NCBI GenBank assembly: GCA_030038355.1 | Contig: JASHPB010000023.1 | Location: forward strand, 1 to 64,000 | DNA from: Candidatus Binataceae bacterium | GTDB lineage: Bacteria; Desulfobacterota; Binatia; Binatales; Binataceae | DNA: 64,000 bases | Direction of reading: 5' to 3' | In this document: in pieces, positions 20,946-32,980 of the stretch | How positions within the stretch are numbered: position 1 is the stretch's first letter | Layout: the number at the start of each line of letters is the position of its first letter | Position numbers and translations under genes: made by a program | The notes under the pieces: model-generated | The model's input: the letters and a program-made list of their open reading frames with translations, nothing else | Told to the model about the DNA's origin: nothing | Database searches by the model: none

Positions 20946-21416
20946 TCAGGCGTGCGTGCGCCGGGCCCTGCGCGATGCAATCGAGAGAAACGCCTCCCCG
21001 AGTTCATTTGCCAGTCGTTGGTTGGTCGCTCCGCGCAGATTGCGAAGCGACTCGGCAGCAAGATCATCGAGCGAGACGATCCCCCTGAGCCCGCCGCCGC
21101 CGTCGACCACCGGCAGACGCCGCACGCCCGTTTCACGCATCAACTGAATTGCGGTGCTGACGTCGTCATCGATTCGGCAGGTGACGACCTTCCGCGCCAT
21201 CGAGTTCTCGGCCGAAATCGACGCCAGCGTGCGCCCTTGAGTATAGGCGGCCATGCAGATGTCCCGATCGGTCAGTATGCCGACGATTTTGTTGGTCTGG
21301 TCGGTGACGGGGATACAACCGCAGGCACTTTCCCACATCAGTTGCGCGGCCCGGTTGAGATTGTCGCCCGGCTGGCAGGCTTTGACGTCCCTTTTCATCA
21401 CGCGTTCGACATTCAT
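20946..21416 (-). CDS. Tandem CBS-domain protein
   Basis: MNVERVMKRDVKACQPGDNLNRAAQLMWESACGCIPVTDQTNKIVGILTDRDICMAA; start at 21416 preceded by GAGGAGAT. Confidence 0.88.
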   Translation of the reverse strand: MNVERVMKRDVKACQPGDNLNRAAQLMWESACGCIPVTDQTNKIVGILTDRDICMAAYTQGRTLASISAENSMARKVVTCRIDDDVSTAIQLMRETGVRRLPVVDGGGGLRGIVSLDDLAAESLRNLRGATNQRLANELGEAFLSIASRRARRTHA

Positions 21417-21456
21417 TTCGATCTCCTCTCTGGCGTAGCGAGCTCGCGACCGTCGT

Positions 21457-22509
21457 TCAGTCAAACAGGATGAGCGGCTTGATTATGCCGTCAAGCTTCT
21501 TGTCCATCGTCGCGAAGGCCTTTTCGATTTCGCCGAAGGAAAACCGATGCGTGGTCATCCGCGTCGGATCGATTTTCTTTTTCTCGAGCAACCGCAGCAG
21601 ACGCTCCATCCTGAGCCGTCCGCCCGGGCATAGCCCGGTGCGGATCGTTTTCTCCGCCATCCCGACGCCCCACTCGGCGCGCGGGATATTTACGAACTCG
21701 CCTTTGCCGTGGTAGCCGGCGTTTGAGATCACGCCGCCCGGCCTTGTGACTTTGATCGCATTCTGGAATGGCTCGTTGCCACCGAGCGCCTCGATCGCCG
21801 CGTCGACGCCCTCGCCGCGCGTCGCCTTCATGATCTCATCAACCGGATCACGTCGCACGTGATCGATGATCAGATCGGCACCGTAGTATCGCGCGAGCTC
21901 CTGGCGCGCCGGCACGGAGTCGACGCCGATCACTAGTCCCGCGCCGCGCAGTTTCGCCCCCGCAACCGCCATCAGCCCGACCGGCCCGAGCGCGAACACC
22001 GCCACCGCGCCGCCGATCGGGATATCTGCGTTCTCTGCCGCCATGAACCCGGTCGACATCATGTCGCAGCAGTAAACGGCACTCTCGTCGCTAACCTCCG
22101 AGGGAATCAACGCCATGTTCGCGTCGGCGTCATTGACGTGGAAGTAATCGGCGAACACGCCGTCCTTGATGTTGGCGAATTTCCAGCCGCCGAGCGCACC
22201 GCCTGATTGCGAAGAATGGCCAGCCTGTGAGGCGAGGTCGCCCCAATCGGGAGTAATCGCGCCGACCACGACGCGATCGCCCGGCTTGAACCGGTTCACT
22301 TCGCTCCCGACCTCGTGCACGATTCCTACGGCTTCATGGCCGAGAGTGAGATTGTGGCGCGGACCGATCGCGCCGTGGATCGTATGCGAATCCGAGGTGC
22401 AGATGAGCGCGCGCGTGGTCTTGACCACGGCGTCGTTGGGGCCTGGCTCGGGAATCGGCTTGTCAACGATGCCGACATGGTCAAGTTCGCGCATTACGAA
22501 TGTTTTCAT
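21457..22509 (-). CDS. Zinc-dependent (secondary) alcohol dehydrogenase
   Basis: MKTFVMRELDHVGIVDKPIPEPGPNDAVVKTTRALICTSDSHTIHG...LGHEAVGIVHEVG; internal ATG at 22509 with GGAG SD; ORF open upstream. Confidence 0.9.
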   Translation of the reverse strand: MKTFVMRELDHVGIVDKPIPEPGPNDAVVKTTRALICTSDSHTIHGAIGPRHNLTLGHEAVGIVHEVGSEVNRFKPGDRVVVGAITPDWGDLASQAGHSSQSGGALGGWKFANIKDGVFADYFHVNDADANMALIPSEVSDESAVYCCDMMSTGFMAAENADIPIGGAVAVFALGPVGLMAVAGAKLRGAGLVIGVDSVPARQELARYYGADLIIDHVRRDPVDEIMKATRGEGVDAAIEALGGNEPFQNAIKVTRPGGVISNAGYHGKGEFVNIPRAEWGVGMAEKTIRTGLCPGGRLRMERLLRLLEKKKIDPTRMTTHRFSFGEIEKAFATMDKKLDGIIKPLILFD

Positions 22510-22986
22510 GGTGTTCTTCTCCGCCTTTGAACCTTGAGCGTCACCGCGCAAGGCGGCGCGATGCTCGAGGAAACGGGCGAGCACCAGGCTCAAGGACTCG
22601 CCTTCGATCGGCCTCGAGACATAGTAGTCGACGCCCATGACGCGTGCCCACCTTTCGTACGCGAGGCTGTGGTTTGTAGCCACATAGATCAGCGACGCGT
22701 GGGGGGCGCGGGCCCTCAAAGCGGTGAGCTTTGCCGCGCGATGGGCTTCGGGGACGACGTTGTCGTCGATCACGATCGTGCCGCTGCTTGAATAAGGCGG
22801 CAGCAGTGGATGATCTGCATCCGGGGCAATTTCCAGGCTATAGCGGCTGCCGGTCGCGCGTCGCGCGGAGGAGATTAGCAGGCCGTCATTCGAGATGACC
22901 AGAATGTCGGGAGCCGATGGCATCAAATCGCTTTGCACTGCTGCGAGTACTTCGGGTGGCTGCAAGGCGAGCTTAAAGCGTGCCAT
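22510..22986 (-). CDS. Receiver-like domain, reading frame continuous with downstream ADH (possible fusion)
   Basis: PDILVISNDGLLISSARRATG...GTIVIDDNVV...ASLIYVATNHSLAYERWARVMGVDYYVSRPIEGESLSLVLARFLEHR; no stop before ADH ATG. Confidence 0.55.
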
Positions 22987-23221
22987 CGCTTGCGCGGCGC
23001 GATTTCGTGGATCCAGTTCACCGCCCAAGAACCAATGCTGCATTCGGCGCCACGGAGAATGGTGCCGATCGCACCACCTGCGTTCATTCCAAGCTCGTCC
23101 GAGCAACCCCTACTTCCGGCAGCCCTTGACATTTCGACGCACCGATCATCCTTGAAGATCGAACGAAAAGCTGGCACGACGATCGCTTAGGCCGAGCACG
23201 ACAGAGTGAGGAGCCAAGGCG

Positions 23222-24037
23222 ATGTCAGTTCCATTCAAAAAGATTCTCTGCCCCATTGATTTCGATCAGAGTGCGCCCGCCGTGCTTACGATGGCCGGGA
23301 AGTTGGCGACTGCCAACGACGCCACCATCTACGTGCTACACGTCGTGCCGATGATCTTCGCCCCAGCCGGCATACCTAGCTACGTCGATATCTTCAAAGA
23401 CCAGGAAGAGTCGGCGCGCACCCGGCTCCGCGAGCTGGCCCACCAGCATCTCTCGGGCATCAAGTATGAACTCCTGATCCACCTCGGCATCCCGATCGGC
23501 ACGATTCTCAACGCGGAAAAGCGCATCGGGGCCGATGTCGTGCTGATGGCAACTCATGGACGCCGCGGCTTCGCCCATGTGTTCCTTGGCAGCGTCGCCG
23601 AGGCTGTTGTCCGCGAGTCAACCTGCCCCGTACTGACAGTCCATTCCGGCTCAACCGACAAGCACCGGGTGGGACATTGGATGACCCTGAACCCGACTAT
23701 CACGCATCGCTCGGAAAAGCTGGCCGTGCTTCAGAAGCGCATGAAGGAAGGAAAGTTTCGCTCGATCCCGGTGCTTGACGACGGACGCATCGTAGGCATC
23801 ATCACCGACCGCGACATCCGCGAAAAGGCGGGATCGCTCGACAATCTTCAAGCCGAGGCCATAATGACTCGCGAGGTGTTGACGGTGACGCCTCGCACCT
23901 CGGCGTGGGATGCGGCGCGCCTGCTTGCCGAGCGAAAAATCGGCGGCATGCCGGTGGTAGACGAGCGTGGCGCGCTGGTCGGCATCGTCACCACGACCGA
24001 CCTGTTGCGGGCGTTTACTGAACTGCAGGGTGAATGA
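23222..24037 (+). CDS. Universal stress protein fused to CBS-domain pair
   Basis: 271 aa; KKILCPIDFDQSAPAVL, MATHGRRGFAHVFLGSVAEAVVRESTCPVL then CBS repeats GIITDRDIREKAG/GIVTTTDLLRAF. Confidence 0.9.
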   Translation: MSVPFKKILCPIDFDQSAPAVLTMAGKLATANDATIYVLHVVPMIFAPAGIPSYVDIFKDQEESARTRLRELAHQHLSGIKYELLIHLGIPIGTILNAEKRIGADVVLMATHGRRGFAHVFLGSVAEAVVRESTCPVLTVHSGSTDKHRVGHWMTLNPTITHRSEKLAVLQKRMKEGKFRSIPVLDDGRIVGIITDRDIREKAGSLDNLQAEAIMTREVLTVTPRTSAWDAARLLAERKIGGMPVVDERGALVGIVTTTDLLRAFTELQGE

Positions 24038-24959
24038 GGCGTGCAAAGGAGCAATCGCGCCGACCGGACGTCCGGAAATCCACTGTTTCGAACGCGGAGT
24101 AAGGCTTGGCCGGCGCGTCGCGAGGCTGATGGGCGCGCGCCTGAAGCCGATAAGGCTGAAGCGTTTTCCTGACGGCGAGAGTCTGCTCACGATTCGCCCG
24201 CCGACCGCGAAGGATGTCGTCGTGATCGAGTCGCTCGACCATCCCGACGAGAAGCTGATTCAGCTCGTCTTCGCTGCCGATGCGCTGCGGCGCGCCGGCG
24301 CTGAAAGCCTGACGCTCGTCGCGCCGTATCTCGCATACATGCGGCAGGACCGTGTTTTCCATCCGGGCGAGCCGCTTTCGCAGCAAGTCGTCGGCGCGAT
24401 GCTGGCGCAAACGTTCGATCGTGTCGTTACGATCGAGCCGCATCTTCATCGGACAAAGTCGATCCAGGCGGTGGTACCTTCGCGATTGATGTCGAGGGCG
24501 CTCACGGCCACACCGGTGATTGCCCGATGGATACGGAAACTGGCAGACGACACCGTGATCGTGGGACCGGACGAAGAATCGCAACCCTGGATCGCCGAAC
24601 TTGGCCGGCTCACCGGTCTGCCTACCGCGGTCGGAACCAAACGACGCAGCGGCGATCGCAGCGTGCGCGTCGACCTGCCCGACCTTGGCCAACACTCATG
24701 CGCCGTGATCGTCGACGATGTCGCGAGCAGCGGCGCCACCATCGCGGCCACGGCGCGGGTGCTCAAACGAAAGGGGATGCGACACGTGGCTGCGCTCGTA
24801 GTTCACGCGATCTTTGCGCCCGGCGCGCTGACGCTGGTCAGGCGAGCAGGAGTAGGAACAATTGTCTCATGCGACACAGTCCAGCATCGGACGAATCGGG
24901 TCAGGGTTGCGCCAATCATCGCGGGCGCCCTCAACGAACATGAGCACGCACGATCATAA
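24030..24959 (+). CDS. Ribose-phosphate pyrophosphokinase-like protein
   Basis: RFPDGESLLTIRP, YLAYMRQDRVFHPGEPLSQQVV, IVDDVASSGATIAATARVL PRPP loop; GTG start overlapping upstream stop is inferred. Confidence 0.85.
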   Translation: MNEACKGAIAPTGRPEIHCFERGVRLGRRVARLMGARLKPIRLKRFPDGESLLTIRPPTAKDVVVIESLDHPDEKLIQLVFAADALRRAGAESLTLVAPYLAYMRQDRVFHPGEPLSQQVVGAMLAQTFDRVVTIEPHLHRTKSIQAVVPSRLMSRALTATPVIARWIRKLADDTVIVGPDEESQPWIAELGRLTGLPTAVGTKRRSGDRSVRVDLPDLGQHSCAVIVDDVASSGATIAATARVLKRKGMRHVAALVVHAIFAPGALTLVRRAGVGTIVSCDTVQHRTNRVRVAPIIAGALNEHEHARS

Positions 24960-26346
24960 ACCCGCGGTGCTCAACTTTCTGGGCGGAGCTGGCACCGTCA
25001 CGGGAAGCAAGTTCCTGATCGCCTCGGCAGGCCGCCGAATCCTGATCGACTGCGGGCTGTTCCAGGGACTCAAGGACCTTCGGCTGCGCAACTGGGATCG
25101 CTTTCCAACCGACCCTCGGGGCATCGACGCGGTCGTGCTCACGCACGCGCATCTCGATCACAGCGGCTACCTGCCATTGCTCCGCCGCTCAGGGTTTCGA
25201 GGGCCGATATTCGCGACGCAGAGCACGGTCGATCTCTGCTGCATCCTGCTGCCCGACAGCGGCCGCCTGCAAGAAGAGGAAGCGAGGTACGCGAACAAGG
25301 CGGGCTACTCGCGGCACTTTCCGGCCAAGCCGCTTTACACCGAGGAAGATGCGTTCGATTGCTTGAATGCCTTGCGGCCGATGCCGTTCGATACGGCGTT
25401 CGAAATCGCGCGCAGTTTCAGCGCGACGTTCCGCCCGGCCGGGCACATCCTGGGGTCCGCGACAGTGCGCATCGAGGTCGATGGCGCCGCCGGCACTACG
25501 GTATTTAGCGGCGATCTCGGCCGGCGAAATCACCCGCTTCTCAAGCCGCCGGCTAAAATCGGCGCCGCGAGCACGGTGCTAATCGAATCGACTTATGGCG
25601 ATCGTGCGCATGATGATGTGAAGTCGATCGAGCGCTTCGACGAGGCGATCCTGCGCACCACTGCGCGCGGCGGCGTTACCGTTATTCCGTCGTTCGCCGT
25701 CGATCGCACCGAGATCGTGCTGTTTCATTTGAGGCGACTCGCCAGTAGCGGACGCCTGCCGGATACACCAATTTTCGTTGACAGCCCGATGGCGCTGGCG
25801 GCGCTCAGGCTATACAAGACGGCGATCTCGAATTGCGATTCGGAAGTGCGGCCGGAGGTAGCCGGCCATCCCGAACTTATCGAGCCGCGCGGACTAATCG
25901 AAGTCAAAACCAGCGAGGAATCGATCGCGCTGAACGGCCGGCCGGGCCCGATGATCATCATCTCTGCATCCGGGATGGCGACGGGCGGCCGCGTTCTGCA
26001 TCACCTGGCGCATCGGCTGAACGACGAGCGCAATACCATCATGCTCGTTGGATATCAGGCGGCGGGCACGCGCGGGCGCACGCTGCTCGAGGGCGCGCCA
26101 AACGTTAAACTGCTGGGCCGCTACGTTCCGGTGCGCGCGGAGATCGTCGATGTCCCGGCCTTCTCCGTCCATGCCGATCGGCATGAGCTGATCGAATGGC
26201 TGAGAAGCGTTCCCGCGCCTCCCGAGATGACTTTCGTAGTTCACGGCGAAGTGGCGGCGGCCGAATCGTTGCGAAACGAGATCGCGAAACAACTTCGCTT
26301 CGGCGCAGCCGTGCCGCGCCAGCTCGAGCACGTCCGCATTGCCTAG
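24940..26346 (+). CDS. MBL-fold beta-CASP RNase-like metallo-hydrolase
   Basis: LTHAHLDHSGYLP, SASGMATGGRVLHHL, GYQAAGTRGRTLLEG, AFSVHADRHEL. Confidence 0.93.
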   Translation: MSTHDHKPAVLNFLGGAGTVTGSKFLIASAGRRILIDCGLFQGLKDLRLRNWDRFPTDPRGIDAVVLTHAHLDHSGYLPLLRRSGFRGPIFATQSTVDLCCILLPDSGRLQEEEARYANKAGYSRHFPAKPLYTEEDAFDCLNALRPMPFDTAFEIARSFSATFRPAGHILGSATVRIEVDGAAGTTVFSGDLGRRNHPLLKPPAKIGAASTVLIESTYGDRAHDDVKSIERFDEAILRTTARGGVTVIPSFAVDRTEIVLFHLRRLASSGRLPDTPIFVDSPMALAALRLYKTAISNCDSEVRPEVAGHPELIEPRGLIEVKTSEESIALNGRPGPMIIISASGMATGGRVLHHLAHRLNDERNTIMLVGYQAAGTRGRTLLEGAPNVKLLGRYVPVRAEIVDVPAFSVHADRHELIEWLRSVPAPPEMTFVVHGEVAAAESLRNEIAKQLRFGAAVPRQLEHVRIA

Positions 26347-26355
26347 CGTGGCGAC

Positions 26356-27858
26356 ATGTTCCGCATCAAGCACCTTCCGCTCGACACGCTCCGCGAGCAC
26401 GTGATCGTGATTCACGAACGGGCCGTGCGCGAGGGTAATTTCGGCTTCAATCCTCTTGACCGCGTGAGAGTCTTCGGCACGGCGCCTGACAAAAGGCAGG
26501 TCGAGATCAACGGGGTCTTGAATTTCTGCCGCGACAACCTGGTGAGCGCCGACGAGATCGGACTCTCCGAGCAGGCGTTCGCCGATCTCGGCCTCGCCGA
26601 AGGCAGCGAGGTGAACGCAACGCTGGCGCTGGCCCCGCGGAGCGTTGACCGAATACGCGACAAATTTTCCGGCGCGCGTCTCGACAGCGCCGCATTTCAC
26701 GCGATCCTGCGCGACGTCGTGGCGCATCGATATTCGCGGGTTGAGCTTGCAATGTTTGTTCTCGCTTGTGCGCTCAGATCACTCGACGGCGACGAGCTCG
26801 CGGACTATACGCAGGCGATGATCGATACCGGTACCTCGCTGAATTTCGGTCCCGGCCCGATCGCCGATAAGCATTGCGTCGGCGGCGTTCCGGGAAACCG
26901 GACCACGCTAGTTCTGGTGCCGATTCTGGCCGCCATGGGCCTGCGCGTGCCGAAGACATCGTCGCGCGCAATTACCAGTCCGGCGGGCACGGCGGACACG
27001 ATGGAGATGTTCGCTGAGGTCGCGCTCGGTCCGGAGCGGCTGCAGCAGGTGGTGAAGAGCGTGGGCGCGTGCATCGCGTGGGGCGGTGCGCTCAAGCTTG
27101 CACCGGCGGACGACATCCTGATCACAGTCGAGCGCCCGATGGAAATCGACACTGTGTCGCAGATGATCGCTTCCATCCTGGCCAAGAACAAAAGCGCTGG
27201 CGCGAGTCACGTTCTGATCGATATCCCCGTGGGACGCACGGCGAAGGTGCGCAGCGATGAGGAAGGTCAGCATCTTGCGCAACTGTTCAGGTCAGTTGCC
27301 GAACGAATCGCACTCAAGGTCGAGGTGCAATTGACTCGCGCCAACGGGCCAATCGGCTTCGGCGTGGGACCGCGCCTCGAGGCGCTTGACGTGCTTTCAG
27401 TCCTGCGATGCGAGGTGAACGCGCCCATGGATTTGCGCGAGAAGGCGCTTTTCCTCGGGTGGCGAGTTCTTGAGATGACGGCTGCAGTACAGCCTGGGGA
27501 AGGCTATCGAGCGGCGGAACGCGCGCTGGACTCGGGCAAGGCGATGGAGATGTTCGAGCGAATCGTCGCAGCGCAGGGACCGCGAATAATGCCGCAGCCG
27601 GCCGCATGCGTCGCGGTTATCGAAGCGAGGAATGATGGTCGGCTCGCCGAGATCGATTGCTGGGAGATCGCCCGCGCAGCCAAGCGTGCCGGCGCCCCGG
27701 CAAATCCAAGCGCGGGTGTGCGACTTAGATGCAAGGTCGGAGAGGTTGTCGCCAAGGGCCAGCCGCTATTTGAAATCCACGCCAGCACCGACGCACAACT
27801 CGGATTCGCGCGCGCTTACGTTGACGCGCATCCAGACATATTCAAGTTGGGATTTTAG
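26356..27858 (+). CDS. Thymidine phosphorylase / AMP phosphorylase family (archaeal-type)
   Basis: 500 aa; IADKHCVGGVPGNRTTLVLVPILAAMGLRVPKTSSRAITSPAGTADTMEM. Confidence 0.92.
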   Translation: MFRIKHLPLDTLREHVIVIHERAVREGNFGFNPLDRVRVFGTAPDKRQVEINGVLNFCRDNLVSADEIGLSEQAFADLGLAEGSEVNATLALAPRSVDRIRDKFSGARLDSAAFHAILRDVVAHRYSRVELAMFVLACALRSLDGDELADYTQAMIDTGTSLNFGPGPIADKHCVGGVPGNRTTLVLVPILAAMGLRVPKTSSRAITSPAGTADTMEMFAEVALGPERLQQVVKSVGACIAWGGALKLAPADDILITVERPMEIDTVSQMIASILAKNKSAGASHVLIDIPVGRTAKVRSDEEGQHLAQLFRSVAERIALKVEVQLTRANGPIGFGVGPRLEALDVLSVLRCEVNAPMDLREKALFLGWRVLEMTAAVQPGEGYRAAERALDSGKAMEMFERIVAAQGPRIMPQPAACVAVIEARNDGRLAEIDCWEIARAAKRAGAPANPSAGVRLRCKVGEVVAKGQPLFEIHASTDAQLGFARAYVDAHPDIFKLGF

Positions 27859-27903
27859 CCCGCGCTCGGGATCTGCTCCGGAGTTGTGGGACGCAAACCT
27901 CCG

Positions 27904-28962
27904 CTAGCCGCGGCGACCGGCCGCGAGCCGATCGAGGCTCTCCGCCTCACCGATCACCACCAGCAGGTCGCCGCCCGCAACTTTGGTCGATTGATCGGGG
28001 ATCATTGAAATGGCCTCGTCGCCGCGCTTGAGCGCGACGACCCTGAGCCGTGCGAACCGGTTTTCGACCGCACCGATTGTCATGCCAATCACCGGATTGT
28101 CGGGCGTGATCTTGATTTCCTCCAGGTCGACCTCTGACTCACTGCCTGGCGCCGACAACTCGAGGAAGTCGACTACCGACGGCCGCAGGATGCTCGCCGC
28201 GATTCGCACTCCGCCCCAGTGGTAGGCCGAGAGTACCTGGTCCGCCCCCGCCAGCCTGAGGCGTCGCAGTCCCTCCTCGGAATCGCCGCGGGCGTGGATC
28301 AGCGCCGTTGGGTTCTTCTCCCGGGCTGAGAGCGTGATATAAACGTTGTCGGCGTCCGAGGCGGTCGCGACTACTACCGCGCGCGCCGAACGCACGCCGG
28401 CATCCTCCATCGTCGATTCCTGCAACGCCGAGCCGATCACATAGAAGACGTCCGCCGCCGACAATTCCGCTTCCTTTGCGGGATCGGATTCGATGACGAC
28501 GACTGCAACTTGATTGCGTACCAGTTCATTAACCACCGCCCGACCAAACCGCCCGAAGCCGCACACGACCACGTGATCCTTCAAGTTGTGAATTTTTCGA
28601 TACATCGCGGTTCTCCCGAAAAACTCGCGCAAACTGCCCTCGAATACCAGTTCCGCCGCCGTGGCGAGCAGATAGCCGGCGCTGGACACGCCAACGATAA
28701 TCAGAGCGATGGTAAACAACCGGCCGGCTGGACTGAGCGGTTTCACCTCGCCGAAGCCAACCGTGGAGACTGTGCTGACCGACATGTAGAGCGCATCGAT
28801 AAGCGTCATCCGCTCGATCAGGATGTATCCGGCTGCGCCGAGGAAAATGATGACGGTGATGCCCGCCATCGCGTAGGCGAAGCGCCTCGCGGGCGTCGCT
28901 CGGCGCCGAATAAGGGGCCGGGCGAGTGGTTGCGCGCCGGACCTGTTCAGACGCGAGGGCAT
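27904..28962 (-). CDS. Potassium channel with TrkA-N / TrkA-C regulatory domains
   Basis: 352 aa; STVSTVGFGEVKPLSPAGR pore/filter, VVCGFGRFGRAVVNEL Rossmann. Confidence 0.92.
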   Translation of the reverse strand: MPSRLNRSGAQPLARPLIRRRATPARRFAYAMAGITVIIFLGAAGYILIERMTLIDALYMSVSTVSTVGFGEVKPLSPAGRLFTIALIIVGVSSAGYLLATAAELVFEGSLREFFGRTAMYRKIHNLKDHVVVCGFGRFGRAVVNELVRNQVAVVVIESDPAKEAELSAADVFYVIGSALQESTMEDAGVRSARAVVVATASDADNVYITLSAREKNPTALIHARGDSEEGLRRLRLAGADQVLSAYHWGGVRIAASILRPSVVDFLELSAPGSESEVDLEEIKITPDNPVIGMTIGAVENRFARLRVVALKRGDEAISMIPDQSTKVAGGDLLVVIGEAESLDRLAAGRRG

Positions 28963-29041
28963 TTGCTTGCGACCGCGGACTCGCGATTAGGAGTCGATCC
29001 GGTCCGTGGTCGTTATGGCGTAGGGCTCGCGATCACTTAAG

Positions 29042-29572
29042 TTAGCGCACCCTCTTCCGGGTGGCGGGGCGAGCGCACGTTACCCTGGCGAGAAGCGTGC
29101 CGTCATCGTCGGACCATGAGAACCGAGCGTTGCCGTGAAATGCTTTTTCGACCTCGCGCGCGATTCGATGCGCGAGCTTCTGTGAAGTGGTGAGAACATC
29201 GAGCGTTTTCTTGTTCCACTCACTGGAGACGATCTTGCGCTCGGGCTGCGTCGTCTGCGCCCGCCGCTCGACGTTGGCGATCCGTGCGGCAATCGCGTCG
29301 CGCTTGGTGTCATCGGGGGCTTCAATCAGGACACGGCCGTGATACTCGCCTGACGCCGCCTGCGCACATCCGGGGCAGATCACCCACGCGGCCTTGTCCA
29401 TCATCACGTGATCGAGGCGTCGGCCGCGGCGCCAGACTTTCGCTGAATAGACGGCAGCGCATCGATCGCAAACCGATGGATCGCGAAAGGTTTGCTTGCG
29501 TGCGACGGGCGGGCTCATGTCGGAGCGCGTTCCCCGCCGATCCAGACTTCGAATCAATCCCTTGGACATCAC
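29042..29572 (-). CDS. BCAM0308-like / NMD3-like zinc-ribbon protein
   Basis: 176 aa; CDRCAAVY and CPGCAQA Cys pairs; neighbourhood with DksA/USP. Confidence 0.6.
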   Translation of the reverse strand: MMSKGLIRSLDRRGTRSDMSPPVARKQTFRDPSVCDRCAAVYSAKVWRRGRRLDHVMMDKAAWVICPGCAQAASGEYHGRVLIEAPDDTKRDAIAARIANVERRAQTTQPERKIVSSEWNKKTLDVLTTSQKLAHRIAREVEKAFHGNARFSWSDDDGTLLARVTCARPATRKRVR

Positions 29573-29593
29573 TTTCTCCGTTAACGCCAGATG

Positions 29594-29776
29594 CTAGCGC
29601 ATAGGCCAGCGTGAGTATTCCGTGCGCGGCTCATAGTGGGCCATTTTCTTATAGATCGCCATCACGATGCGCCAGTAGCGCTCGCCTTCTGCGTCCGGAT
29701 ATTCATCGCGAGCCCTCTCCTTGGCGCGCTCCCAAAGGACTTCCTCTTCAGGTGTCCTGACGACATTGACCGGCAT
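29594..29776 (-). CDS. Small conserved-looking protein (60 aa)
   Basis: MPVNVVRTPEEEVLWERAKERARDEYPDAEGERYWRIVMAIYKKMAHYEP; strong SD AGGAGG upstream of 29776. Confidence 0.65.
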   Translation of the reverse strand: MPVNVVRTPEEEVLWERAKERARDEYPDAEGERYWRIVMAIYKKMAHYEPRTEYSRWPMR

Positions 29777-30045
29777 GTTCCTGGTCCTCCTGAATTTCTC
29801 AAAGACACTAGCTATGGTTATGCCAACGTAATCAGCGGATTGCGGGTTAATCTGGCTCCCTTTGGAGCAAGAAATGCTCGCCACTGGCGCGAATCGCAAC
29901 ATCGGGAAATTGGAATCATCGGCCAGACCTCCAATTGTCCTTGGCGCGCTCATTGCTCAGAAATCGTTCCCGCGGAAACGCAACAAATGATGCGCCATCA
30001 TTGGAAGACCCGGCGCGAGCAGAAAACGTCTACGAGGATTCGAAG

Positions 30046-30630
30046 ATGGCCCATGCACATAGCGATGAAACCCGCGCGGAACTCCGCGAGATGCTGCTGC
30101 AGCTTCAGCGCGAGGCACGGCAAAAGATCGAGGATTTCCGCCGCGACCGGGAACAGGAATCGAACCCGGAACCCGCCGATTCAATCGACGCGGCGCAGAC
30201 CACCGAAGGCGTTGAGACGCACGCCGCGCTGATTTCCGGCGCCGAAGAAAAACTGCGATACCTCGACGAAGCCCTGACGCAGTTGGAGGAAGGACGATAC
30301 GGTATCTGCCTCGGCTGCCGCTTGCCCATTCCGCTCGAACGCCTACGTGCCGTTCCGTTCGCTGCGTATTGCATTGACTGCCAGCAGACTCGCAATCGTC
30401 GCCGCGCCGATTGGGCCAAAGGCACGATGATCGAGCCTTACGACCAGCAATGGTCGATACCCGAGGAGATGGAAGAGGCGCCGAGCCGCGAATATCACAG
30501 CACGGCGGTCGAGGAGCAATTGGAGGTTCGAGTTGCAGGAGCCGAGACGGCAGGTCGGCCGAAAGCCATGCCGTCGAAGGCGCCGGCTAAATCACGTCCC
30601 AAGCGCCCTCATACGCGGCGCCCTCATTGA
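30046..30630 (+). CDS. TraR/DksA family zinc-finger transcriptional regulator
   Basis: CLGCRLPIPLERLRAVPFAAYCIDC C4 zinc finger; LDEALTQLEEGRYGICLGC. Confidence 0.9.
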   Translation: MAHAHSDETRAELREMLLQLQREARQKIEDFRRDREQESNPEPADSIDAAQTTEGVETHAALISGAEEKLRYLDEALTQLEEGRYGICLGCRLPIPLERLRAVPFAAYCIDCQQTRNRRRADWAKGTMIEPYDQQWSIPEEMEEAPSREYHSTAVEEQLEVRVAGAETAGRPKAMPSKAPAKSRPKRPHTRRPH

Positions 30631-30658
30631 CAAGTTATCCGGCGAGACGTTCGAATCG

Positions 30659-31117
30659 TTAGATCAGAACCGAGCTGGAGGCGCTAGGATGTCCGCTGTT
30701 GCATCGAATTGTGAGCACCGGAACGGGAGATTCGCGGACGACACGCTCGGCCACGCTGCCAAGTAGAAAATGAGTTATCCCGGTCCGGCCATGGGTCGAG
30801 ATCGCGATCAGGTCGCATTCGTAATCTTGTGCGGCCCGAATGATTTCCGCGGCCGGCTCTCCCGTGAGCACCGCGATTTCGGCGTTCGGGACTGAGGCCT
30901 CGGCCGCCAGCCTTTTCAAGTCTTCCCGCGCTTGATGCTCACTGCCCGACAAGGGTTCGATAAAGACCGGCTGGCCAGCCGCTTCGATAGGCATCGGAAC
31001 GACGTGAAAGAGCACGAGCGCCGCGTCGGTATCGACCAGCTTGCGGGCGAACTCGAGCAAGGGCTTAGAATTGCCTCCCAGGTCGATCGGGCAGAGAACT
31101 CGCTGGAATGGATTCAT
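30659..31117 (-). CDS. Universal stress protein
   Basis: 152 aa; FQRVLCPIDLGGNSKPLLEFA, ISTHGRTGITHFLLGSVAERVVRESPVPVL. Confidence 0.93.
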   Translation of the reverse strand: MNPFQRVLCPIDLGGNSKPLLEFARKLVDTDAALVLFHVVPMPIEAAGQPVFIEPLSGSEHQAREDLKRLAAEASVPNAEIAVLTGEPAAEIIRAAQDYECDLIAISTHGRTGITHFLLGSVAERVVRESPVPVLTIRCNSGHPSASSSVLI

Positions 31118-31242
31118 CGTCGTCCTCCCCGGACAGCATCAGTCATACTGCATGGCGAAGCTGGGTCAAGGAAGCAATTGGCTGGCGATCCACCTGCGAT
31201 TGCGATTGACTGTCGTTCACAGGCGGTTTTCGGCGAGGTCCC

Positions 31243-31638
31243 ATGATCGTACGAAAAATCATGACGGTTCGGCCCGAGACGGTGCGTCCTCAAGACTCGA
31301 TCGAAAGCGCGCGGCTTAGGATGGAACGCGGTGGTTTCCGCTCGCTTCCTGTTCTCGACAATGACGCGCGTCTGGTCGGGATCATCACCAGTCACGACGT
31401 TTTGCGCTACGTTCACGCGCTGCCGAACACCAGGGTTGACCACGCGATGACCCGCGATCCGATTACGATCGCGCCTGACGCCTCGGCCGAGGACTGCGCC
31501 ACTACCCTGCTCGCGCATAAATTCGGCGGGCTGCCTGTCGTCGAGGGAGACCGCGTGATCGGTATCGTGACCACCACCGACGTGCTGCGCGCATTTGTAC
31601 GCGTCGAACGTGCCACCAGGCGTATCCTCGATCCCTAA
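31243..31638 (+). CDS. CBS-domain pair protein
   Basis: 131 aa; IMTVRPETVRPQDSIESARLRMERGGFRSLPVLDNDARLVGIITSHDVL, GIVTTTDVLRAF. Confidence 0.9.
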   Translation: MIVRKIMTVRPETVRPQDSIESARLRMERGGFRSLPVLDNDARLVGIITSHDVLRYVHALPNTRVDHAMTRDPITIAPDASAEDCATTLLAHKFGGLPVVEGDRVIGIVTTTDVLRAFVRVERATRRILDP

Positions 31639-31669
31639 GACGAACCCGGTTGCGGCCGGACTGCCATCG

Positions 31670-32980
31670 CTACAGATAGCCAAGGTCGCGCGCCTGCGTG
31701 CGAAGCTCAGAATGAAACTTTGGATGCGAGATCGCGATTAGCGCCTCGGCCCGTTCCCCGACTGACTTTCCGAACAGATCCGCCACACCGAATTCAGTCG
31801 CGATATACTGCACATCGGCGCGGGGATCGGTCGTCGGACCGATGATCTTCGGCACGATACGCGAAATGGTCCCGCCGCGGGCCGTCGAATATGCCGCGAG
31901 GATCGATTTGCCGCCGTTGGAAAGCTGCGCACCGCGCACAAAATCGAGCTGACCGCCGGGCGCGCTGTACTGCATGCCGTTGATAGATTCCGAGTTTACC
32001 TCGCCATCGAGGCCTACTTCGAGGAACGCGCTGATCGAGATCACCAAGTCGTTTCGGCCGATCACTTCCGGGTCGTTGACGTAATCGACGGCGAACGCCT
32101 CCATCGAGGGATTGTCGTTGAGGAAGTTGTAGAACTCCGCGTCGCCGGCCGCGAGCGTGTACACGTTCTTGTAGCGGTTGATGTTCTTGTACTTGTTAGT
32201 GACCGCGCCACATTGAACAAGTTCCGCGAGCGCAGGCATCATGAGCTCGGTGTGAATTCCAAGGTCGCGATGGCTACGGAGTGCCGCACAAACCGCCGCC
32301 GGCACGCCGCCCAGTCCGATCTGCAGCGTCGCGCGATCCGGAACCAGCTCGGCAATGAACTTGCCGATCGTTACGTCGGTGAATGACAGAGGCCGCGGCG
32401 GAATTTCAAAGAGCGGGCTCTCATTTTCGACGATCGCGTTGACATCCGAAATGTGCAACGTCGAATCGCCGAAAGTCCGCGGCATCTTGGGATTCACTTC
32501 AACGATTAGCTTCTGCGCCGAGCGCGCCACCGGGATCGTATAGTCGCCATTGGTCCCGCAGCTGAAGAAACCCGCCTTATCCATGGGCGCGACCATCACG
32601 ATAAAGGCGTCCATGCCGATCGCCTTGAGGGTCCGCGGCATCGCGCTGAAATTGCCGGGCATATAGGAAACGACCCTGCGATGGTCCTTTAGGCCGCGTT
32701 CCATCAAGTTCCGTTCGATGGCGGTGGGGAAGAACGGGTACGGCTTGATGGCGTCCATGTACTCATACTTCAGAATCGTCAGCGCCGCTGCCGTCACCGA
32801 GTGCGAATAGAAGACTCGCAGCTCCTCGATCTCTCCGGCCTTGACCCGATTCTCGAGCGCCTGCAGCAGAGCGGGCGGCGTGCTTATCGCCATTCCCATT
32901 GAGAGGTTGCCACGCGAGGGAATGAGATGAACGGCCTCCGCGGCGGTGGTCAGCTTCGAGCGATAATCCGACTGGTACAT
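31670..32980 (-). CDS. Acetyl-CoA hydrolase/transferase family (4-hydroxybutyrate/acyl CoA-transferase-like)
   Basis: 436 aa; LQIGLGGVPAAVCAAL, GQLDFVRGAQLSNGGKSILA. Confidence 0.9.
   Translation of the reverse strand: MYQSDYRSKLTTAAEAVHLIPSRGNLSMGMAISTPPALLQALENRVKAGEIEELRVFYSHSVTAAALTILKYEYMDAIKPYPFFPTAIERNLMERGLKDHRRVVSYMPGNFSAMPRTLKAIGMDAFIVMVAPMDKAGFFSCGTNGDYTIPVARSAQKLIVEVNPKMPRTFGDSTLHISDVNAIVENESPLFEIPPRPLSFTDVTIGKFIAELVPDRATLQIGLGGVPAAVCAALRSHRDLGIHTELMMPALAELVQCGAVTNKYKNINRYKNVYTLAAGDAEFYNFLNDNPSMEAFAVDYVNDPEVIGRNDLVISISAFLEVGLDGEVNSESINGMQYSAPGGQLDFVRGAQLSNGGKSILAAYSTARGGTISRIVPKIIGPTTDPRADVQYIATEFGVADLFGKSVGERAEALIAISHPKFHSELRTQARDLGYL

Follow-up and report, generated by a model that had tools for sequence, protein, structure and literature searches.

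The closest described counterparts of the locus considered here include the archaeal pentose bisphosphate pathway, or nucleoside monophosphate (NMP) shunt, which involves the Thermococcus kodakarensis AMP phosphorylase TK0352, an isomerase for ribose-1,5-bisphosphate (R15P) and RuBisCO, and the ribose 1,5-bisphosphokinase PhnN, which phosphorylates R15P to phosphoribosyl pyrophosphate (PRPP) (PMC9700705). Among gene sets, Bradyrhizobium diazoefficiens carries side by side a metallo-beta-lactamase (MBL) gene (bll3115), a PRPP synthetase (PRS) gene (bll3116) and a thymidine phosphorylase family gene (bll3117) that are induced at 0.5% oxygen, according to the passages of PMC6515984 that deal with them. 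The Burkholderia low-oxygen (lxa) locus holds universal stress protein (USP) genes, the MDR alcohol dehydrogenase (ADH) gene BCAM0299, the 51-kDa MBL gene BCAM0300 and BCAM0308, which go up together in the cited table of PMC6127331. Here, we analyzed a stretch of 64,000 nucleotides (the window) from a Candidatus Binataceae bacterium (Desulfobacterota; assembly GCA_030038355.1), part of the 79-kb contig JASHPB010000023.1 in a genome of 5.05 Mb (349 contigs, 93% complete), and within it the interval from 20,946 to 32,980. A preliminary description had read this interval as one energy-sensing programme that couples RNA decay, NMP phosphorolysis and PRPP metabolism to K+ flux and ribosome control, and open reading frames and profile searches bore out every gene it named, in family and at least approximately in position. 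Gene content and conservation, however, split the interval into two adjacent modules. We tentatively read the first (a USP-CBS protein, a PRS-like protein, a beta-CASP ribonuclease [RNase] and a phosphorylase), at somewhat less than an even chance, as an operon that recycles NMPs through R15P to PRPP, with the second module separate from it.

Module 1 is a tight plus-strand operon, in which the USP-CBS gene runs 8 bases into the PRS-like gene, the end of the PRS-like gene overlaps the start of the beta-CASP gene (ATG 24940), and the phosphorylase gene starts 9 bases past the beta-CASP stop. The phosphorylase was found in 12 of the 394 phylum genomes and in 23 of the 57 closer relatives, both counts including the window genome, and in more than 580 stretches of one-per-species genomes; the public relatives whose phosphorylases are 57–64% identical are genomes of uncultured organisms, filed under Proteobacteria or Deltaproteobacteria. 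A PRS gene lay within 9 kb of the phosphorylase gene in 91 of 107 loci, which is more than chance proximity, a count that includes a few PRS of a different type in the other orientation (L040) and that is lowered by short contigs. By group, the gene was this close in 69 of the 75 distant named loci, in 5 of the 6 from a second family of the phylum, in 12 of 20 class relatives, in 2 of 3 further class relatives whose phosphorylase is distant, and in both close named loci as well as the window. In 58 of the 75 distant named loci, the PRS gene was on the same strand and less than 400 bases from the phosphorylase gene. The beta-CASP gene was near the phosphorylase in 14/20 class relatives and 15/75 distant loci; no other gene family was comparably conserved beside the pair, and neither phosphorylase-PRS nor phosphorylase-RNase fusions occurred, in the loci examined. 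Plasmid records yielded 115 with the phosphorylase and 105 with the PRS-like protein, many of them conjugative plasmids, and the two genes were within 6 kb of each other on at least 34 plasmids among the records listed. Moreover, of about 225 USP genes counted across 23 genomes, at least 16 (in seven genomes) were located within 10 kb of the phosphorylase gene, where about one was expected. By these patterns, the coherent unit is the RNase, the NMP-phosphorylase-type enzyme and the PRS-like protein, with the USP-CBS protein as a candidate sensor.

One plasmid of Agrobacterium tumefaciens CFBP6623 (L182:7150-13488) carries an operon of PRS-like, phosphoketolase-like, beta-CASP and phosphorylase genes, with a Crp/Fnr gene about 4 kb upstream of it. 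Its phosphoketolase-like protein is annotated as a xylulose 5-phosphate 3-epimerase and scores 135 bits against a phosphoketolase cut-off of 962.

The distribution of these genes could also reflect accretion only, with stress genes gathering in mobile islands and sharing no pathway beyond the phosphorylase-PRS pair. The patchy occurrence in the phylum (12/394 genomes), the many conjugative plasmids, broad conservation that is limited to the pair and less often includes the RNase, and the separation of the two modules in relatives are all consistent with this. However, we consider it improbable, given the overlap or abutment of four genes including that for the USP-CBS protein, the co-induction of the Bradyrhizobium trio and the recurrent USP enrichment.

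The phosphorylase resembles that of the archaeal shunt in superfamily, N-terminal extension and PKTSSRAITS motif. It is 500 amino acids long, and the profiles match from residue 2–3, whereas the alignment with nucleoside phosphorylase chains begins only at about residue 94–100; the extension of about 84 residues is a mark of NMP phosphorylases that nucleoside phosphorylases lack. The motif PKTSSRAITSPAGTAD at 26950 agrees with the pattern PKTSSRA(I/V)TS.AGTAD common to the Thermococcus kodakarensis and an annotated haloarchaeal AMP phosphorylase, while a pyrimidine-nucleoside phosphorylase carries MSGRGLGHTGGT.D at this position. Among solved structures, the protein matched 4ga5 (E 1e-97). A Lys-to-Val change at the phosphate site of the T. 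kodakarensis enzyme was dropped as a diagnostic, as the haloarchaeal AMP phosphorylase has Lys.

Unlike in the archaeal shunt, the PRS-like gene adjoins the phosphorylase gene, and the window genome has neither R15P isomerase nor RuBisCO; the absence of both from the window, remarked on earlier, thus extends to the whole 93%-complete genome. None of the 23 lineage and 28 named genomes had an R15P isomerase above the cut-off. Matches of 145–220 bits fell below it and are probably methylthioribose-1-phosphate isomerases. RuBisCO was present in 1/23 lineage genomes, and PhnN in 0/23 lineage and 4/28 named genomes. PhnN was rejected as an R15P sink in the lineage, its matches of about 50 bits being probably guanylate kinases. 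PhnN belongs to a guanylate-kinase-like family rather than to PRS, and it is absent from the window genome, but it is fused to this same phosphorylase family on plasmids of three bacteria (Variovorax sp. SRS16, Pacificitalea manganoxidans and Paraburkholderia sp. 22B1P), where it would use the same intermediate. The fused PhnN domain scored 179.7 and 183.9 bits in Variovorax and Pacificitalea, respectively (cut-off 156). These fusions argue that the phosphorylase family can yield R15P and that a gene beside the phosphorylase can encode an R15P-to-PRPP kinase, a place that the altered PRS-like protein takes in the window and in most other loci. Because of the fusions, and because the isomerase is absent and RuBisCO and PhnN are mostly so, R15P is the probable product of the phosphorylase, with the PRS-like protein a candidate substitute for PhnN.

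In the two annotated cases, Variovorax and Pacificitalea, the fusion gene is preceded by nadC, whose product is a PRPP user. These pairs (L191:7400-10395 on Variovorax sp. SRS16 plasmid 4, and L196:7125-10091 on the P. manganoxidans plasmid) are each near carboxylate-transporter genes. The arrangement suggests a cycle from quinolinate to nicotinate via nicotinate mononucleotide, in which PRPP would be regenerated through R15P; we know of no experiment on such a cycle.

The PRS-like protein belongs to the PRS sequence family (TIGR01251, 190 bits, cut-off 113; Methanocaldococcus jannaschii PRS 1u9y, E 7e-36), with the signatures PHLHR at 24438, GPDEES at 24564, KRRSGD at 24639 and DDVASSGAT at 24714. 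GPDEES departs from the PD-x-(G/A) pattern of the loop taken, as in PRPP synthetases generally, to be the pyrophosphate loop. Across 87 loci, Glu replaced the Gly/Ala of the PD-x-G-(G/A) loop in every phosphorylase-linked PRS, accompanied by HLHR (87/87), a Trp four residues past the Glu (85/87) and an Asp in the flexible loop (86/87). The K..R flexible loop, the DD..S(S/T)G.T ribose 5-phosphate (R5P) loop and RQD were retained, and the catalytic-loop Lys/Arg, the metal-site Asp/His and the R5P loop were invariant. This alignment was numbered against a Bacillus subtilis sequence, and the result was repeated without that ruler. Eight annotated plasmid copies carry the same loop signature. In contrast, this position is Gly or Ala in all 19 other lineage PRS genes, and two solved relatives have PDKGA and PDRGA. 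Judged by these residues, the PRS linked to the phosphorylase forms a subfamily of its own in which the pyrophosphate loop is remodelled, and a literature search found no description of a distinct PRS subfamily tied to an R15P-type phosphorylase.

The altered loop also bears on whether these genes merely provide ordinary nucleoside salvage boosted under stress, with a thymidine or pyrimidine-nucleoside phosphorylase and a true PRPP synthetase, as the database names imply (NF003338 'thymidine phosphorylase' and NF005537 'ribose-phosphate diphosphokinase'). Although the PRS-like protein retains the catalytic K/R and R5P-loop residues, the loop is changed in 87/87, a canonical PRS of about 400 bits is additionally present in each of the 23 lineage genomes checked, the phosphorylase has the AMP-phosphorylase-type motif, and PhnN fusions would make little sense with ribose-1-phosphate. 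We therefore rank ordinary salvage second among the alternatives and consider it quite unlikely. The least probable alternative gives the PRS-like protein no catalysis of its own, only a role as partner or regulator of the phosphorylase. Eukaryotic PRS-associated proteins without PRS activity exist, and chains 2c4k and 2ji4 are among the structure matches; however, a pseudoenzyme would likely have lost some of the catalytic Lys/Arg, metal-site and R5P-loop residues that are invariant here.

An acidic residue in place of Gly/Ala could, alternatively, disfavour a diphosphate, in which case the PRS-like protein might be an R5P 1-kinase that transfers a single phosphate in either direction (R5P + ATP <-> R15P + ADP). 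Under energy stress, NMP, phosphate and ADP would then give base, R5P and ATP, and R5P could pass to phosphoketolase and acetate kinase. The phosphoketolase-like gene within the Agrobacterium operon would fit this scheme, as would ackA, pta and phosphoketolase genes near the Sphingobium pair. Yet the Agrobacterium protein is far under the family cut-offs, phosphoketolase and ackA matched in one locus each among the other loci scanned, the PhnN fusion points to PRPP, and moving a phosphoryl group from an anomeric phosphate onto ADP is an uphill reaction. We consider this scheme unlikely, albeit the foremost of the alternatives. As context for it only, a systematic neighbourhood search for phosphoketolase, ackA, pta and phaC gave one match each or none in chromosomal loci.

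Expression data are available for the Bradyrhizobium genes, which are likened to those of the window by annotated gene type. Under microoxia, the proteins of bll3115, bll3116 and bll3117 changed by log2 fold changes of 2.9, 4.4 and 2.1, and their transcripts rose 15.4-, 7.7- and 5.1-fold, respectively (PMC6515984). The passages of that study concerned with these genes do not list them as FixK2 targets and assign them no function. A homologous trio on a B. septentrionale plasmid has a PRS with the loop signature and an adjoining USP gene; no K+ channel, DksA or BCAM0308 gene is annotated within 9 kb of it.

In the recycling operon that we favour, the beta-CASP enzyme would degrade RNA and supply 5'-NMPs, which the phosphorylase would cleave with phosphate to base and R15P. 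The PRS-like enzyme, whose canonical loop Gly is gone, would phosphorylate R15P to PRPP, the job of PhnN in the fused version, and the ribose-phosphate would then be loaded onto another base. The USP-CBS protein would probably couple the operon to the adenylate level, and expression would probably be raised at low oxygen or low energy, as for the Bradyrhizobium trio. The sensing of energy charge by CBS and USP proteins is suggested at the level of their families, and the substrates of the phosphorylase and the reaction and direction of the PRS-like enzyme are predictions from sequence. The coupling of RNA decay, NMP phosphorolysis and PRPP metabolism proposed earlier thus gains from the co-conserved core, from the co-induced homologous trio and from fusions that point to R15P.

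Several observations weigh against this scheme. The phosphorylase falls below the AMP_phos cut-off (TIGR03327, 456.2 versus 535 bits), and some loci have the phosphorylase without a PRS (e.g., L037, L042, L048, L183 and L195). The Glu of the pyrophosphate loop, taken alone, does not identify the reaction that is run. The three PhnN fusions form one clade on a long branch of the tree and therefore represent one event, and a literature search found no enzyme assay for the phosphorylase clade or the PRS subfamily. Furthermore, a scan of the 64-kb window for FNR/Anr boxes gave three one-mismatch sites where 1.4 were expected, which is no more than chance, and none of them in an island promoter; no FNR-type box stands out, and no low-oxygen promoter signal was found in the window.

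Module 2 comprises genes for a K+ channel, a BCAM0308-type zinc protein, a small protein, DksA, a USP, a CBS protein and a CoA-transferase. Its run is intact and syntenic in a sister genome (L153), with the K+ channel beside the zinc protein; the CoA-transferase gene is syntenic there and present too in L150, L155 and L158. A BCAM0308-type protein was identified in 26 of the 36 relatives; its gene is mostly distant from that of the phosphorylase and frequently next to USP, CBS, DksA or CoA-transferase genes. Because this gene mostly sits elsewhere and the run is intact in L153, the right half is a second, lxa-like module. The window shares with the lxa locus the USP, ADH and MBL gene set and a BCAM0308-type protein, although the latter scores under that family's cut-off (79.2 versus 100 bits), and the lxa locus is much larger (50 genes), with neither phosphorylase nor PRS in the cited table (PMC6127331). 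Genes for the K+ channel, zinc protein, small protein, DksA, ADH and CoA-transferase were near the phosphorylase in only 0–3 of 20 class relatives and 0–2 of 75 distant loci. Of the single programme proposed in the preliminary description, the RNase-phosphorylase-PRS core (and, in 91/107 loci, the phosphorylase-PRS pair) is upheld by gene neighbourhood, whereas module 2 lies mostly elsewhere in relatives, and the inclusion of K+ flux and ribosome control is not supported. Homologs of the small protein (L033, L153 and L158) adjoin a BCAM0308-type gene in L153 and L158, and the BCAM0308-like protein had no match on the plasmids searched. A third PRS type (about 280–300 bits) was seen near relatives' stress modules (L173, L174 and L178), for example in G404, where it is near a BCAM0308-type gene, and in G388, where it is near the phosphorylase.

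Features of the interval in order of position, with supporting profile matches
Feature	Positions	Strand	Matches and remarks
CBS-pair protein	20946..21416	-	PF00571 x2, E 1e-27
Zinc-dependent alcohol dehydrogenase (MDR family)	21457..22509	-	PF08240/PF00107
Receiver-like domain, in frame with ADH	22510..23106	-	without significant Pfam match
USP-CBS-CBS protein, first core operon gene	23222..24037	+	PF00582 + PF00571 x2
PRS-like protein, GTG start, remodelled pyrophosphate loop	24030..24959	+	NF005537 346.6 bits, cut-off 322
beta-CASP metallo-beta-lactamase ribonuclease	24940..26346	+	PF10996 + PF07521
Archaeal-type NMP/thymidine phosphorylase homolog	26356..27858	+	NF003338 584 bits, cut-off 434; TIGR02645 519.5 bits, cut-off 434.6
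K+ channel with two transmembrane segments and TrkA-N/TrkA-C	27904..28962	-	PF07885, PF02254, PF02080; module 2
BCAM0308/NMD3-like zinc protein	29042..29572	-	NF040826 79.2 bits, cut-off 100; PF04981 25.9 bits
Small conserved protein	29594..29953	-	without Pfam match or known family
DksA/TraR-type zinc-finger protein	29935..30630	+	PF01258; NF033459 66.6 bits, cut-off 105
Universal stress protein	30659..31117	-	PF00582, E 4e-30
CBS-pair protein	31243..31638	+	PF00571 x2, E 7e-32
Acetyl-CoA hydrolase/CoA-transferase family protein	31670..32980	-	PF13336, PF02550

Outside the four-gene core, the interval holds several further transcription units on both strands, and scans of the window for repeats, promoters and terminators gave nothing notable above shuffles. 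The first CBS-pair protein likely starts at ATG 21416 (its listed frame begins at TTG 21464) and is a satellite, with a CBS profile match near the phosphorylase in 8/20 class relatives. The frame at 21457-23106 probably represents two genes, because homologs of the receiver-like part stand alone in the stress loci of five relatives (L033, L034, L041, L151 and L152) and a GGAG-like site lies upstream of the ADH ATG (22507-22509). The closest solved relative of the RNase is TTHA0252 (2dkf, E 1.4e-87), and the DksA/TraR-type protein likely starts at an ATG around 30046.

The phosphorylase-linked PRS is newly recognized here as a separate subfamily, and the conserved core is a candidate for a new bacterial step of nucleotide recycling. 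More widely, a PRS-fold kinase that has a remodelled pyrophosphate loop and handles R15P, alongside an NMP phosphorylase and frequently an RNase, may form a widespread and undescribed route that dispenses with RuBisCO and PhnN and is switched on under oxygen or energy limitation, a generalization that we hold possible though rather doubtful. If it is true, an R15P-centred nucleotide shunt of a kind so far known mainly from archaea would be present in hundreds of bacterial species, many of them at present annotated with a spare copy each of thymidine phosphorylase and PRPP synthetase, and these two common database names would be corrected. It would also explain the role of microoxia-induced genes and answer the question, raised in the preliminary description, of the fate of R15P.

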